Assembly (NCBI GenBank): GCA_025354985.1 | Contig: JANXLU010000076.1 | Location: 1 to 44,207, forward strand | Direction of reading: 5' to 3' | DNA length: 44,207 nucleotides | From: Chloroflexota bacterium | Lineage (GTDB): Bacteria; Chloroflexota; Anaerolineae; J036; Brachytrichaceae | Shown: positions 16,703 through 43,895 of the stretch, piece after piece | How positions within the stretch are numbered: the first letter of the stretch is position 1 | How the letters are laid out: each line of letters starts with the position of its first letter | Translations under genes and position numbers: made by a program | The notes under the pieces: generated by a model | The model's database searches: none | Told to the model about the DNA's origin: nothing | Seen by the model: the letters and a program-made list of their open reading frames with translations, nothing else

Positions 16703-16748
16703 ATAAAAATAAACCCGTCCTCATTGGTTTATGAATGAGGACGGGTTT
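16703..16748 (-). terminator. Intercistronic hairpin with U-rich tail between the binding protein and oppB
   Basis: A perfect 14-bp stem (16711-16724 with 16735-16748, loop 10 bases) is followed on the minus strand by ATTTTTAT and then immediately by the oppB ATG. It has the form of an intrinsic terminator. In this position it could attenuate permease expression or protect the 3' end of the binding-protein message. Confidence 0.7.
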
Positions 16749-28072: not shown

Positions 28073-28104
28073 AAAAAAAGCCCTCCCGTTTTGTCGGGAA
28101 GGCT
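28073..28104 (-). terminator. Intrinsic terminator immediately upstream of asd
   Basis: A 10-bp stem with one G-U wobble (28079-28088 with 28095-28104, loop 6) is followed on minus by seven T residues (28079-28073). It ends 15 bases before the asd ATG. It terminates either osmC transcripts or, more interestingly, the asd leader. Confidence 0.85.
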
Positions 28105-28204
28105 TGCTAACTTTGCGATTTTTTCTAGCTCAAACCCATCCCAACGTGCGACAGTTGGTCACTGTAGTCTCCGATCGGCTTAACGCGGCTGTTGGTTTGG
28201 AGCT
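28105..28204 (-). promoter_or_regulatory. Structured asd leader, candidate riboswitch/attenuator
   Basis: On the minus strand a closing helix forms between 28194-28204 and 28127-28136 (10 bp with one bulged base at 28200). It encloses AAC/GTT and GCG/CGC pairings (28143-28150 with 28184-28193), a hairpin ACAGT/ACTGT (28151-28165) and a small CCG/CGG element (28171-28178). The 3' arm of the closing helix (28131-28142) can alternatively pair with the 5' half of the terminator (28096-28106), which would release asd. I do not recognise a named class: lysine, SAM and T-box signatures are absent. Confidence 0.5.
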
Positions 28205-38613: not shown

Positions 38614-38632
38614 TGGTCGGATTGGCCGGCAT

Positions 38633-38638
38633 TATAAT
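38633..38638 (+). promoter_or_regulatory. -10 box of the four-GNAT leader
   Basis: Perfect TATAAT, 20 bases after the upstream stop. A transcript from about 38645 would begin with the GTGCCA/TGGCAC hairpin. No consensus -35 at the usual spacing. Confidence 0.45.
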
Positions 38639-38645
38639 GAAATGA

Positions 38646-38825
38646 GTGCCAGGGTTTGGCACAAGTGATGGAAATTACAACGTGTTTTAGTAGTGGCGAC
38701 GGCATAGCCGTTTATGTGGCCCTTTCGTCTTTCAAAGGGGCTCACCCTCGTATTGCGCCAGTTTTCCTTAGGCTTGAAACGTAGCTTATTGACCAAGGAC
38801 CAATCCTTTTGAAAACCGCGGGCGC
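38646..38825 (+). promoter_or_regulatory. Structured leader of the four-GNAT gene, candidate riboswitch/attenuator
   Basis: Elements in order: a perfect hairpin (38646-38651 with 38657-38662); a three-way junction closed by TGGCG/CGCCA (38694-38698 with 38756-38760); two arms inside it, ACGGC/GCCGT (38699-38711) and GTG..CCCTTT/AAAGGG..CAC (38716-38745); a small AAGGA/TCCTT hairpin (38795-38808); then a terminator. The strand 38755-38766 can leave the junction and pair with the terminator's 5' side (38811-38816 and 38821-38825), giving mutually exclusive structures. No named class was recognised. Confidence 0.55.
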
Positions 38826-38850
38826 ACCAAGCACCCGCGGTTTTTTGTTT
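38812..38850 (+). terminator. Intrinsic terminator directly upstream of the four-GNAT gene
   Basis: AAAACCGCGGG (38812-38822) pairs with CCCGCGGTTTT (38834-38844), 11 bp. A T6-G-T4 tail follows from 38841. Only about 13 bases separate the tail from the ATG at 38864, leaving no room for a conventional promoter. Confidence 0.88.
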
Positions 38851-38863
38851 TGCAGACACCGAA

Positions 38864-40912
38864 ATGGAGAATCAATCAACCACCAACCACACGATAGATG
38901 GCTTGAGGTTTCGCTACTTTGCGGGGCCGGAGGACTATGCCGCAATTGCACAGGTAATGAATGCCTCCTGGCAGGCAGATGCTATTGATTACGTCGATGA
39001 GCCTGATGACATCGTCAATAATTGGTCCGAACTTGCCAATTTTGAGCCGGACGAAGATGTGCTGATCGCGGAAATTCGCGGCGAGCCCGTTGCCTGGTGT
39101 ATGAACAGCATCTTTGTCATGGACGACAGCAACACACAATGTATCAGGGTCGATGGCTTTAGCAAACCTGGCGCACGGCGAATTGGAATTGCCGGTCTGT
39201 TTATGCGCTGGCAACTCGATCGCGCCAGCATTCAGTTTCAGAAATATCCGCATCACGGCCCACGCGAACTGCGTAGTTGGAGCTATGACAAGATGGTGGG
39301 GCGGGAGCAGTTGTTGCAAGGCTTTGGGTTTGTGCCGTTTCGCCATGGTTACATGATGATTCGGACCTTGGAGGGCCAAATCTGCCAAGAGGAAATGCCA
39401 GATGGGATTCAGTTGCGGCCGATGACGCCTGATTTGTTGGAGGTCTATTTTTGGGCCAAAAATGAAGCGTTTCGGGATCACCATGGTTATAGGGTTGCAA
39501 CACAACGTGAACTGCAAGCGTTTTTGGAAGCTCAGCGCGGCAAGCCAATGGATGGTTGGCAGGTCGGGTTTGATCTTGCAACCGGTGAGATTGCCGGCGC
39601 TGTTGACGTATACATTTCGGATCAGGAGAACCGTAGGTTTGTCAAAAAGCGTGGATGGACTGATCCGATTTTCGTGCGCAGACCGTGGCGCAAACGCGGT
39701 CTGGCGCGCGCCTTGACAACCCGGGCGCTGCAGTTTTTGCAGGACGCAGGCATGACGGAGGCGTGCCTAACTGTTGACGCATTGAACCCAAACGGCGCCC
39801 TCAAACTATACGAAGGGTTGGGATTCAAACCAGAATTCAAATCGCAATCATGGCGACGAGCGGTTCCCGCTGCTCACTCCGATTCAAGAGGCGGCGCTCA
39901 CATCGGGTTGGAAACACTGACGTTTCAGGTTGGATTGAGAGAGATCGACTATGCGCGGGCGGCAACCCTCAGCAACCTTTCCAATGTGTATGACGGTATT
40001 GACTGGACATTTAGTGAAGACTTGATTCGGGAAACATGGCCGAGGCTGGACAACACTGCTCCCGACCGCGATTTCATACGCATCGAGACCGATAAAGGCG
40101 AACTTGCAGCAATTGCCCGTTACAACTGGGAGACTCAGCTTGGTGGCACTCGTGTACACCGCCATAACGTGCATATGCATCCGGATTGGCGTAGAAAGGG
40201 CATTGGAACATGCTTGATGAAGTGGTTGGACGCGCGCGTGGCAGAAACGGACGCGACACATGTGACCGAGCACAGTACGGTCGTGCACATCGACGGTCCG
40301 GATTCCAACGTTGGATTGGCTGCGTTGCTTCCTTTAAAGAGATTTATGCCGGTGCGGCACGAGTACATCATGATCAATCATGAGCTGAGCACTGCGCCGG
40401 ATTTTCCACTGCCACAAGGATTTGAGATTCGACCCGTGAACCGAGCGCACATGCGGGAGATTTGGCAAGCTGGGAATGAAGCATTTGCAGACCATTGGGG
40501 CGCGACGGTACCATCGGAAGTGCAGTTTGAACGCTGGCGCAAAGATCCCCTGGTGCGGCCAGAATACTTCTCGGTGGCGTTTCACGTCGCATCGGGCCAA
40601 GTGGCGGCACAAGTTCAGGGATTTATTAACGAGTCGGAAAATGCATTGTTTAATCGCAAGCGCGGATGGACAGAGGACATTTCGACCAGACGAGCGTATC
40701 GACGCTTGGGTCTTGCCCGGGCACTTATTAGTCACTCCATTCGCATGTTTCGCGCCATGGGTATGACCGAAACCGCACTGTCGGTTGACACCCAGAATTC
40801 AACCGGTGCACTGCGGGTATATCAGGATTGTGGCTATCGCGTGGTGATGCGCGAGACAACGTGGGAGAAAGTGACCCAACAGGCCATGACAAGCATATTT
40901 GACAACAAGTAG
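38864..40912 (+). CDS. Protein with four GNAT acetyltransferase domains
   Basis: 682 residues, apparently two copies of a double-GNAT unit. Acetyl-CoA-loop motifs recur four times: about residues 102-112 (ARRIGIAGLFMRW), 275-283 (RKRGLARAL), 442-450 (RRKGIGTCLM) and 612-620 (RRLGLARAL). The second and fourth domains end in matching LTVDALNPNGALKLYEGLGF and LSVDTQNSTGALRVYQDCGY segments and share a KKRGWTDPI/RKRGWTEDI element. The domain order resembles mycothiol synthase (two GNAT domains) duplicated. Substrate unknown. The N-terminal domain of each pair looks degenerate. It is controlled by a terminator-ended leader and followed 14 bases later by an ABC-F gene. Confidence 0.88.
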   Translation: MENQSTTNHTIDGLRFRYFAGPEDYAAIAQVMNASWQADAIDYVDEPDDIVNNWSELANFEPDEDVLIAEIRGEPVAWCMNSIFVMDDSNTQCIRVDGFSKPGARRIGIAGLFMRWQLDRASIQFQKYPHHGPRELRSWSYDKMVGREQLLQGFGFVPFRHGYMMIRTLEGQICQEEMPDGIQLRPMTPDLLEVYFWAKNEAFRDHHGYRVATQRELQAFLEAQRGKPMDGWQVGFDLATGEIAGAVDVYISDQENRRFVKKRGWTDPIFVRRPWRKRGLARALTTRALQFLQDAGMTEACLTVDALNPNGALKLYEGLGFKPEFKSQSWRRAVPAAHSDSRGGAHIGLETLTFQVGLREIDYARAATLSNLSNVYDGIDWTFSEDLIRETWPRLDNTAPDRDFIRIETDKGELAAIARYNWETQLGGTRVHRHNVHMHPDWRRKGIGTCLMKWLDARVAETDATHVTEHSTVVHIDGPDSNVGLAALLPLKRFMPVRHEYIMINHELSTAPDFPLPQGFEIRPVNRAHMREIWQAGNEAFADHWGATVPSEVQFERWRKDPLVRPEYFSVAFHVASGQVAAQVQGFINESENALFNRKRGWTEDISTRRAYRRLGLARALISHSIRMFRAMGMTETALSVDTQNSTGALRVYQDCGYRVVMRETTWEKVTQQAMTSIFDNK

Positions 40913-40926
40913 CAGGCAAATTCAAC

Positions 40927-43053
40927 ATGTCGATTCTTACAGCAAAAAATTTGAGCCAATCCGTTGGCAGTGTGGACGTCTTCGAGGGTATCAGCGTGGC
41001 GATTGATCACGAAGACAAGATAGGACTAATTGGTCCGAACGGGGTGGGTAAGACCACGTTGTTGCGCGTTCTGGCCGGTCTTGAGAAACCGACCGTGGGT
41101 GAGACGATTCTGGCGCGAGGCAAACGCATCGGTTATGTGCAGCAGGAGGCAATGACCGCGTTTGAGGGGCGCACACACTCGGTACATCAGGAAATGCTTG
41201 AGGCGTTTTCATATGTGCGCGGGTTGGAAGCGCGGATGCGCGAGATTGAAACCTTGCTGGGTGCTGTGTCATCTGAGGACTCGAGCCGCCTGCTGGATGA
41301 ATACGGGGTGCTGCAGGAAGGTTTTGAACATGCGGATGGTTACTCGTACGAGGAGCGCATTATTCCGATGTTGCGCGGACTGGATCTTGAGGCGCATGCC
41401 GAAACCGCAATTCACCATCTGAGCGGTGGTCAAAAGACGCGAGCCATGCTTGCCAAAGCCCTGCTGTCCAAGCCGGACTTGCTGATTCTTGATGAGCCAA
41501 CCAACCACCTGGATATCGAGGCCATTGAATGGTTGGAACAATTGCTTGGAGCATGGAAGGGTGCATTGTTGATTGTCAGCCATGACAGGCGGTTCTTGGA
41601 CGTGGTGGTCAACAAAATCTGGGAAATGAGCACCAATCGCATTGACGTGTATCGCGGGAATTACAGCGCATATGGTGTGCAGCGCGAGCAGCGGTTTGCG
41701 CATGAGTTGTTCCTGTGGGATCAGGAAAAGGCCAGGCTGGAAAATGAGATGCGTCTGGTTAAGATTGAACTGGACAAGGTGAAGGGCGGGAATGATACGG
41801 ACGTCAGCTGGGCCAAGGGCAAGCTTAAGCGGATTACCCGCGATGTGATTGTGCTTGAGCAGCTGGGTGTGGGCGCTTTGAAGGGTGAGAACTGGCTGGA
41901 TCTGAGCCAGCAGATTGAGGGCAGTACGCGACCCTGGGGATATGAGGAAGCCGATCGACATCTGCGGAGTTTGCGCAGACCGGCACCGCCCACCAAGATG
42001 AACCTGCGTATCAACGCGCCAAACCGAGGCAGCAACATTGTGCTGGCGGCGGAGCAGCTTGTGGTTGGCTATCCACCGGCGGCCAAACTATTCTCTGTTG
42101 AAGAACTAACGCTTGAACGCACCCACCATACCGCGTTGATAGGTTCAAACGGCAGCGGCAAGACCACGTTTATTCGCACGATGCTTGGGGAACTGCCCGC
42201 GCTGGAAGGTGGGATAACCGTTGGTCCAAGTGTGTCGATCGGTTACTTTTCACAAGCGCATGATGAGCTGCGCGCCGACACGCGCTTGCGGGACGAACTG
42301 CTGCGGCACAAGCCCACGATGAAAGAACAGGACCTGCGGTATCACATGGCGCAGTACCTCTTTCGCGATGATGACCTTGACAAATTTGTAAGCGGCCTGA
42401 GTGGTGGCGAACGTGCGCGTCTGGCGTTGGCGGTATTGGCGTTGCGCGGTTTCAATTTTCTGGTGTTGGATGAGCCGACCAATCATTTGGATATTTATGC
42501 GCTTGAAGTATTGGAGAATGCCCTGGCTACGTTTGATGGCACGTTGCTGATCGTGAGCCATGACAGGGCGCTGATCAGCAAATTGGCAATCCGCATCTGG
42601 CATATTAAAGAGGGCAAGCTCGACGCCTTTCGAGGTAATTACGATGAATGGCGGAACAGAGATCGGGATCGCGTGAGTGCCCAGTCGGTCAATGGCCGCA
42701 GCGAAGCGCAAGCGTCTGTAAAAGTTGACGATGCCACAAAGGGAACGAAGCCCGCCAACAGAATTCAGAAGCCGGCCGCAGGTGCAAAGGCGGCCGTCAA
42801 ACCCGGTAAAAGCAATGATTCAAATGAACAGGCAAGCAAAAATGCGCACAAACGCACGGCACAGTTGGTTGTTGAGGCGGAGCAACGCGTGGCGAAGCTT
42901 GAGGAGCAGGTCGCGACGTTGACCGAGCAATTGCAACTCACCACTGATTTTGCAAAGATCAAGGCCACCAGCGACCAAATCGCCCGGGCGCAGGAGAAGC
43001 TGGACGCCGCCTTGGTCGAATGGGAGCGCGCGATCATGGTTAGGGCACCATGA
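40927..43053 (+). CDS. ABC-F family ATPase
   Basis: 708 residues with two nucleotide-binding domains and no membrane segments. Walker A loops lie at 36-43 (GPNGVGKTT) and about 406-414 (GSNGSGKTT). Signatures are LSGGQKTRA and LSGGERARLAL. Walker B pairs are LLILDEPTNHLD and FLVLDEPTNHLD. The interdomain linker is helical and charged. After the second domain comes a basic Lys/Ala-rich stretch and a C-terminal coiled coil (about 640-705), as in Uup/YdiF-type members. ABC-F proteins act on ribosomes during stalled or antibiotic-inhibited translation. The stop overlaps the next ATG by 4 bases (ATGA), so the transporter gene is coupled. Confidence 0.95.
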   Translation: MSILTAKNLSQSVGSVDVFEGISVAIDHEDKIGLIGPNGVGKTTLLRVLAGLEKPTVGETILARGKRIGYVQQEAMTAFEGRTHSVHQEMLEAFSYVRGLEARMREIETLLGAVSSEDSSRLLDEYGVLQEGFEHADGYSYEERIIPMLRGLDLEAHAETAIHHLSGGQKTRAMLAKALLSKPDLLILDEPTNHLDIEAIEWLEQLLGAWKGALLIVSHDRRFLDVVVNKIWEMSTNRIDVYRGNYSAYGVQREQRFAHELFLWDQEKARLENEMRLVKIELDKVKGGNDTDVSWAKGKLKRITRDVIVLEQLGVGALKGENWLDLSQQIEGSTRPWGYEEADRHLRSLRRPAPPTKMNLRINAPNRGSNIVLAAEQLVVGYPPAAKLFSVEELTLERTHHTALIGSNGSGKTTFIRTMLGELPALEGGITVGPSVSIGYFSQAHDELRADTRLRDELLRHKPTMKEQDLRYHMAQYLFRDDDLDKFVSGLSGGERARLALAVLALRGFNFLVLDEPTNHLDIYALEVLENALATFDGTLLIVSHDRALISKLAIRIWHIKEGKLDAFRGNYDEWRNRDRDRVSAQSVNGRSEAQASVKVDDATKGTKPANRIQKPAAGAKAAVKPGKSNDSNEQASKNAHKRTAQLVVEAEQRVAKLEEQVATLTEQLQLTTDFAKIKATSDQIARAQEKLDAALVEWERAIMVRAP

Positions 43054-43895
43054 ATCCATCCGGCATTATTGGAGCGGCGCTGGCCGTGGCGTCTGCCCTG
43101 GTGTGGGGCAGCGGGGATTTTTCAGGGGGTTTGGCCGCCCGCAAGTTATCACCATGGCAGGTCACGTCTGCTGCGGCATTTAGCGGGCTGGCCAGCCTGC
43201 TGATTCTGATGGTTTTGCGGGCTGAGGCGTGGCCCGATGGGATGGGTGCCGTTTGGAGCGCCTTGGCTGGGCTGGCCGGCGCGCTTGGAATTGCGTGTCT
43301 GTACAGCGGGCTGGCAACGGGTGGGGTGGCGATCACGGCGGCGATCTCGGGAGTGATCAGTGCGGCGATCCCGGTCGCCTTTGGTGCAATTTCCGAAGGC
43401 ACTCCGCCGCCGTTAAAACTAATCGGCTTTGCGCTCGGGTTGGTCTCGATAGCGCTCGTGTCACAGACCGGCGCCAACCAAACACGATCACGGCGGGCAA
43501 CTATTGTTCTGGCCACGTCTGCCGGGATCGGTTTCGGCATGTTCTTCGTGCTGATTTCAAACGTGAAAGGCACGATTGTGTTCTCACCACTTGTGATTGC
43601 GCGTGCCACTATGCTCGTGGCTTCGCTATTGCTAATGGTGATCAAGGGTGAGCGATTCCCGAATCTTGCGGTGCATCCGATTGCGATCCTAGCGGGCGTT
43701 TTGGACGCGGGTGGCAATGTGTTGTTCTTGTTTGCTCGACAATTCACACGGCTCGATGTCGCATCGGTGCTTTCGTCGCTATATCCGGCCAGCACAATCC
43801 TGTTGGCGCGAATTTTTCTTCACGAGCGCCTGCGTCGTATTCAGATCGCGGGCGTGATGGCGAGCCTGGTCGCGATTGCCCTGATCGTGGTATGA
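43050..43895 (+). CDS. DMT-superfamily (EamA-type) transporter
   Basis: 281 residues with about ten hydrophobic segments in two five-helix repeats, the EamA layout. The first repeat begins ALAVASALVWGSGDFSGGLAAR. The second ends with SSLYPASTILLARIFLHERL near the C-terminus, the position of the conserved P-x-x-[TS]-x2-[LW] and E-R segment of EamA repeats. It exports or imports small metabolites; the substrate is unknown. It is translationally coupled to the ABC-F gene through an ATGA overlap and followed by a strong terminator. Confidence 0.9.
   Translation: MNPSGIIGAALAVASALVWGSGDFSGGLAARKLSPWQVTSAAAFSGLASLLILMVLRAEAWPDGMGAVWSALAGLAGALGIACLYSGLATGGVAITAAISGVISAAIPVAFGAISEGTPPPLKLIGFALGLVSIALVSQTGANQTRSRRATIVLATSAGIGFGMFFVLISNVKGTIVFSPLVIARATMLVASLLLMVIKGERFPNLAVHPIAILAGVLDAGGNVLFLFARQFTRLDVASVLSSLYPASTILLARIFLHERLRRIQIAGVMASLVAIALIVV

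Follow-up and report, generated by a model that had tools for sequence, protein, structure and literature searches.

The 250-nt leader that precedes a multi-GNAT acetyltransferase gene in the window (the whole 44,207-nucleotide stretch of DNA analysed here) is, on comparison with related leaders, very probably a member of an Anaerolineae/Chloroflexota family of ribosome-mediated transcription attenuators, in which early stalling of a ribosome in a short leader ORF would lead to read-through into the operon. A sequence-only reading of the stretch had described this region as a candidate riboswitch/attenuator. Of these two labels, attenuator is supported, by an unusually strong terminator (z -5.4) and by an antiterminator that covaries in related leaders, and riboswitch is not. 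Since the leader stands before acetyltransferase, ribosome-protection and transporter genes, it probably activates them when protein synthesis is disturbed.

Organisation of the leader and the operon

The elements named in the sequence-only reading, that is a TATAAT, a 5' hairpin, a three-way junction and a terminator with a T6 tail, were all recovered by sequence inspection and folding, and GCGCC-A-GTTTTC (38755-38766) is indeed complementary to GAAAAC (38811-38816) and GGCGC (38821-38825). What had been overlooked is that the three-way junction and the antiterminator 5' strand lie inside a 38-codon ORF (38668-38784). The features of the leader and the operon are as follows:

38633-38638, + strand: -10 hexamer TATAAT (from sequence)
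about 38645, + strand: predicted transcription start
38646-38662, + strand: 5' hairpin GTGCCA-GGGTT-TGGCAC (from folding, z -2.8), adjoining the leader ORF start
38668-38784, + strand: leader ORF (uORF), ATG to TAG, 38 codons, MEITTCFSSGDGIAVYVALSSFKGAHPRIAPVFLRLET
38694-38760, + strand: three-way junction, with P1 38694-38698/38756-38760, P2 38699-38711 and P3 38716-38745
38743-38760, + strand: motif codons CAC CCT CGT ATT GCG CCA, encoding H-P-R-I-A-P, a motif common to about 27 other leaders
38755-38766, + strand: region 1, the antiterminator 5' strand (GCGCCAGTTTTC), within the leader ORF (from sequence)
38811-38825, + strand: region 2, the antiterminator 3' strand and terminator 5' arm
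38811-38851, + strand: intrinsic terminator T1, stem 38811-38845, with T-rich tail (T6)
38864-40912, + strand: gene 1, 682-aa multi-GNAT acetyltransferase (Pfam Acetyltransf_1, 6e-31, three stretches)
40927-43053, + strand: gene 2, ABC-F protein (433 bits against the 380-bit NCBIfam cut-off for 'ribosomal protection-like ABC-F')
43050-43895, + strand: gene 3, EamA-family transporter, overlapping the ABC-F stop

The leader ORF has alternative in-frame starts at GTG (38665) and TTG (38656); no clear Shine-Dalgarno sequence was found before it, and a promoter scan matched no -35 hexamer upstream of the TATAAT, and hence no two-hexamer promoter. Two other uORF candidates (GTG 38646-38690 and ATG 38642-38668) were dropped because the motif shared with other leaders occurs only in the frame 38668-38784. 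Within the junction, P1 consists of TGGCG/CGCCA, with a probability of 0.84-0.89 when partial transcripts are folded, and the P2 arm of ACGGC-ATA-GCCGT; by holding region 1, the junction may play an anti-antiterminator role. T1 begins 26 nt past the leader ORF stop and ends adjoining the GNAT start. The GNAT and ABC-F genes are separated by 14 nt, and the ABC-F and EamA genes overlap. The operon thus includes, as its second gene, an ABC-F gene of the ribosome-protection type, and control by leader-ORF attenuation is well documented for ABC-F genes (vmlR, PMC9226507; cplR, PMC10201436; msrD, PMC10314930).

The terminator is far beyond chance, none of 1000 shuffles equalling it; the three-way junction stands out only slightly (z -2.0, equalled by 3.4% of shuffles), and the leader minus its terminator is unremarkable (z -0.8). 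The antiterminator duplex has an energy of -15.0 kcal/mol against a shuffled-leader mean of -15.9 kcal/mol, with 62% of shuffles as good, so that comparative evidence is needed to decide. Taken alone, the window sequence offers a terminator adjoining a start codon and little else.

Related leaders in Anaerolineae and Chloroflexota

GNAT and ABC-F homologues were gathered from related genomes and their upstream regions scanned. Three loci (L014, L156 and L157) share the order promoter, ORF, twin terminators and gene, their ORFs ending in TACPCRSVPFARLSQ, FVHPRSAPARR and TAMPCRITPLERLE, respectively, directly before the stop, and the window frame 38668-38784 ends in GAHPRIAPVFLRLET. More generally, relatives in Anaerolineae/Chloroflexota have a short ORF ending in [HP][PC]R[SI][AVT]P, followed by one or two terminators and then by a GNAT, ABC-F, ABC transporter or HAD gene. 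The ORFs are about 27-41 codons long, with R-[SI]-[AVT]-P at most 14 codons from the stop; some leaders carry other residues before R-S-A-P (PSRSAP, PYRSAP, KGRSAP). Most relatives have a promoter of the TTGACA-TATAAT type and an in-frame ORF, many of them with an AGGAGG-type Shine-Dalgarno sequence.

The motif was first noticed in four leaders and tested afterwards, and the scanned loci are biased, many having been fetched as GNAT/ABC-F neighbourhoods. When the pattern [HP][PC][RC][ISV][ATVS]P near a stop and upstream of a terminator was compared with five permuted motifs, it gave 9 matches against 0 for all five in 1.2 Mb, and 23 matches against 0, 0, 0, 0 and 1 in 2.2 Mb. These controls, together with an unbiased scan of genome contigs, partly answer the selection bias. 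A twin-terminator pattern and a scan of 84,980 species added further members; in the species scan, 115 stretches across many phyla fitted the DNA pattern; among the matches listed, the in-frame motif with stop and terminator occurred only in Anaerolineae, Anaerolineales or Chloroflexi records. In total, about 28 distinct leaders were collected.

Membership of the window leader is suggested by its motif (expected by chance near a stop about 0.0003 times in a leader of this size), by the position of the motif before a terminator, by a shared CGTATTGCGCC and by a matching operon. Three matches (L100-L102), which precede ABC-F genes from the window's own family, have CGTATTGCGCC in common with the window (L101 with one change). 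An interpretation of this likeness as transporter coding sequence was dropped, the other frame being that of the leader motif. In L236, the leader is directly followed by the ABC-F gene; in L100-L102, a small ORF lies between the two. The window leader is a divergent member, with no -35 hexamer, no Shine-Dalgarno sequence, weak 1:2 pairing of its own (defined below) and a single terminator where most relatives have a second; L301 likewise lacks a second terminator. The closest genomes of the window's genus have neither the leader nor the four-GNAT gene order, so that there is no close orthologue for comparison. In same-genus genomes (L093-L095), a convergent tRNA-like gene (GCGGGTGATGGGATTTGAACCC) lies upstream of the ABC-F orthologue, before which no attenuator leader is present, so that neither the leader nor the gene order of the window is common to the genus.

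When the window's own genome was searched for a second copy of the motif pattern, 41 matches were obtained against 14 for a backward control, and no further leader was established. DNA similarity searches with the 250-nt leader within the family returned chance-level matches only, and a protein-based scan of genome contigs with the window GNAT protein detected no relative. Repeated 17-nt matches in one related genome (G025) proved to be REP-like palindromes (GGTGGGCGACGGCATTGCCGTCGCCCACC), of which that genome carries at least nine dispersed copies (L062-L070). We found no description of this leader family in the literature searched, whose coverage excluded most subscription journals; the family is apparently undescribed.

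Constraints on the peptide and on the RNA

Across the family, the Arg codons of the motif vary (CGC, CGT, CGG), as do the third positions of the Pro codons, and the Arg and Pro residues are kept. Motif codon 5 invariably ends in G and codon 4 nearly always in T, which suggests an additional constraint at the RNA level. On sequence comparison, this constraint is pairing with the first terminator: the motif codons (region 1) pair with its 5' arm and loop (region 2), and changes on one strand are matched on the other. The matched combinations are CGC/CTGCG, CGT/CTACG (L014), CGG/CTCCG (L149, L156, L236), TGC CGC/CTGCGG (L218, L233) and GTGCC/GGCA (L237). Region 1 paired with its own T1 gives a mean energy of -23.05 kcal/mol versus -19.46 kcal/mol (sd 0.58) with swapped partners, a difference reached in 0 of 50,000 permutations, and likewise in 0 of 50,000 for 16 non-redundant leaders. 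In an ungapped alignment of 13 leaders, four pairs show two-sided changes; the cells with such changes number 5 versus 1.2 expected (0 of 500 shuffles), and standard pairs are far fewer at every slid register. The pairing of 38755-38766 with the terminator 5' arm, which the sequence-only reading had called an antiterminator, thus has covarying equivalents in related leaders. Covariation in homologues, a check named there, is seen for this antiterminator; of the three-way junction, no other copy was found in the window's own genome or in 396 genomes of the class. The window's own 1:2 pairing is neither above chance nor above that of swapped partners.

Two further pairings are seen in the family. 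The Shine-Dalgarno/start region of the ORF pairs with the motif codons (own versus swapped partners, fraction 0.00025), and the 3' arm of T1 pairs with the 5' arm of T2 (permutation fraction 0.0028). The first terminator was mis-assigned for L218 in the 1:2 test and for L307 in the 3:4 test, and both errors oppose the reported result. Together with the 1:2 pairing, these helices give most members a relay 0:1 / 1:2 / 2:3 / 3:4 / 4:5, in which 2:3 and 4:5 are the terminators; in the window, the antiterminator of the sequence-only reading corresponds to 1:2 and its terminator to 2:3. The leader ORF family, its motif, its terminators and the covarying 0:1, 1:2 and 3:4 pairings are thus established at the level of sequence comparison. 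No clear equivalent of the helix between ORF start and region 1 was established in the window, where the 3' arm of the 5' hairpin would, by its position, occupy the place of the relatives' Shine-Dalgarno/start region that pairs with region 1.

Proposed mechanism

The conserved peptide motif with its synonymous changes, the promoters, the Shine-Dalgarno sites and the helix joining ORF start and ORF end point to the ribosome as the sensor. Judged by comparison only, namely by the conserved in-frame motif, the synonymous changes and the promoters and Shine-Dalgarno sites of the relatives, the leader ORF appears to be translated. We propose the following hypothetical sequence of events: (i) RNA polymerase would transcribe the leader ORF, the last codons of which (region 1, HPRIAP-VF) can pair with the terminator 5' arm; (ii) during normal translation of the leader, or while upstream RNA holds region 1, the 1:2 pairing would not arise, the terminator would form and the operon would be off; (iii) a ribosome stalled near the start of the leader ORF would disrupt the upstream structure and expose region 1; (iv) region 1 would then pair with the terminator 5' arm, allowing the polymerase to continue into GNAT - ABC-F - EamA. 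In relatives with two terminators, the freed T1 3' arm would pair with the T2 5' arm and disarm the second terminator. Constrained folding of the window leader agrees with this sequence of events. When 38645-38683 (the leader start) is blocked, the antiterminator is the minimum-energy fold before the terminator 3' arm is made, and when the leader stop is blocked, the terminator remains; termination is thus modelled as dependent on the position of the ribosome in the leader ORF. According to this scenario, early stalling in the leader ORF would be the ON signal. The genes that accompany the leaders (ABC-F, GNAT, ABC transporter and HAD) suggest an antibiotic as the stress, and the inducer is probably a ribosome-targeting antibiotic or another block of translation.

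With less than even confidence, we further hypothesise that the R-S/I-A-P coding stretch is both a stress sensor acting through the nascent peptide and the middle strand of a five-segment RNA relay, and that this relay controls an acetyltransferase/ABC-F/exporter regulon. Under the same tentative hypothesis, the stretch would have two alternative partners, its own start site and the first terminator; in the latter case, the other arm of that terminator would disarm the second one.

Alternative explanations

Alternatively, R-x-x-P could be an intrinsic arrest peptide, the arrested ribosome covering region 1 and keeping the operon off until a stress that relieves or prevents arrest turns it on. 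The placement of R-[SI]-[AVT]-P at most 14 codons from the stop fits such a role, and RAPP motifs stall ribosomes (PMC10951233), as does the related arrest peptide SecM (PMC10951299). However, the sequence is neither RAPP nor RAGP, and several of these codons are already constrained by the RNA pairing in itself (such as the invariant G at position 3 of codon 5). We regard this as unlikely, although it is the alternative that survives best. Somewhat less probable still is that the ribosome senses a shortage of charged tRNA, that is amino-acid starvation as in trp/his/ilv-like systems, rather than an antibiotic. In its favour, the ilvB and metG genes of this genome are preceded by leader ORFs in which the relevant codons abound, and the Arg and Pro codons of the motif are near-invariant, but no leader of the family contains a run of a single amino acid, and the downstream genes encode acetyltransferases, ABC-F proteins, ABC transporters and HAD proteins, none of them biosynthetic.

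That T1 is the ordinary terminator of an upstream gene, or leaky insulation without regulation, is very unlikely. In this genome, strong terminators often lie just before a start codon, with 15 of 41 terminator-like sites in 444 kb lying at most 60 nt upstream of a same-strand start. However, several of these starts carry a -10-like sequence between terminator and start codon, as expected of leaderless genes, and the GNAT gene has none: a sequence scan detected no -10-like TANNNT between terminator and ATG, so that transcription must cross the terminator. A promoter at this place, which the sequence-only reading had named as incompatible with its proposal, is thus not indicated. Moreover, the window leader has its own TATAAT, 225 nt upstream of the GNAT start, and the family motif. 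The distant TATAAT and the lack of a -10 sequence after the terminator group the GNAT gene with the leader-type genes (ilvB, metG, valS), which make up other sites among the near-start terminators.

Rfam 15, searched with gathering and E-value thresholds, gave no match for the window leader, in agreement with the sequence-only reading, in which no known class was recognised, and none for 16 related loci; for a T-box in particular, there was neither an Rfam covariance match nor a AGGGTGGNACCGCG-like sequence in the window leader. In the window's own genome and 396 genomes of the class, a one-sequence covariance model of the three-way junction, which is a weak test, detected only the junction itself. 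The least probable explanation is the metabolite riboswitch of the sequence-only reading, in which the three-way junction would bind a small molecule and select antiterminator or terminator without a ribosome: mutually exclusive structures are present and the junction folds slightly better than shuffles, but the supposed aptamer is coding sequence with no further copy in these genomes, and what is conserved instead is the peptide motif and the helix between ORF start and ORF end.

Comparison with characterised attenuators

Most leader-peptide attenuators known to respond to antibiotics come from Firmicutes and Actinobacteria. The attenuator papers used here for comparison concern Bacillus, Clostridioides and Streptomyces. 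The proposed ribosome-mediated attenuator resembles that of vmlR in Bacillus subtilis, where a short leader ORF lies in an anti-antiterminator and stalling in this ORF prevents the anti-antiterminator, so that the antiterminator forms before an ABC-F gene (PMC9226507). However, vmlR-type leader ORFs have few codons (uORF4u consensus MIN; PMC10201436) compared with about 27-41 in the Chloroflexota family, in which the conserved C-terminal R-x-x-P motif is itself the antiterminator strand, most members have two linked terminators, and GNAT and ABC-transporter genes are also controlled. The longer translated leader peptide and the alternative stem-loops are shared with bmrB-bmrCD of B. subtilis, in which an antibiotic-responsive ABC transporter is under ribosome-mediated transcription attenuation (PMC4191407). 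In contrast to the Chloroflexota family, where the terminator follows the leader stop, the bmrB-bmrCD terminator lies inside bmrB; the two also belong to different phyla, with no common peptide motif established.

Like trp/his/ilv attenuators and the ilvB leader of this genome, the family combines a leader ORF with alternative antiterminator and terminator, but it has no regulatory codon run and precedes resistance-type rather than biosynthetic genes. With the RAPP/RAGP arrest peptides ApdA, ApdP and SecM (PMC10951233, PMC10951299), it shares an upstream ORF with a conserved Arg...Pro motif at the C-terminus; its motif is, however, R-[SI]-[AVT]-P, its downstream genes are not concerned with protein localisation, and arrest is only putative in Chloroflexota. 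A conserved family in Chloroflexota would identify the GNAT, ABC-F and exporter genes of this phylum as translation-stress inducible and would allow the regulon to be traced by sequence, and its motif is a short, conserved candidate ribosome-stalling sequence. The window's four-GNAT protein, whose role is otherwise unassigned, becomes a candidate resistance or ribosome-associated enzyme.

Further observations in the window's genome and related genomes

Small basic or membrane-like ORFs of about 47-90 aa are located directly before the ABC-F gene in L100-L102, L092 and L096, with the recurring C-termini GVFVIL, GVFAI, GVFVF, GVMLI and EVLLI. In the 444-kb sample of the window's genome (G000; the window and L106-L125), the frequency of TANNNT has a peak 6-9 nt before ATG, which indicates that leaderless promoters are numerous. 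Two more strong terminators of the window also stand close to genes, that at 28078-28105 (-) 21 nt upstream of a 360-aa ORF and that at 16711-16748 (-) 9 nt upstream of a 334-aa ORF, and each may be followed by a leaderless promoter.

The same genome carries three other leaders. Before valS (L113), a T-box-like GGTGGTACCACGC precedes the terminator (G000:C19:152629-152663, -), with no Rfam T-box match at the gathering score. The leader ORF before ilvB (L107; MRLGIVVVVGIDLLLVLSGLERKSFRTASR) is rich in branched-chain codons, and the terminator (G000:C19:30154-30185, -) lies 3 nt before the called start; this leader has no Rfam match. Before metG (L117), the terminator (G000:C20:59001-59024, no Rfam match) lies 48 nt upstream of the gene and follows a short ORF (MTANLGSSMMMPGETIARADEQ) with three consecutive Met codons; this leader is likely a Met-responsive leader-peptide attenuator.
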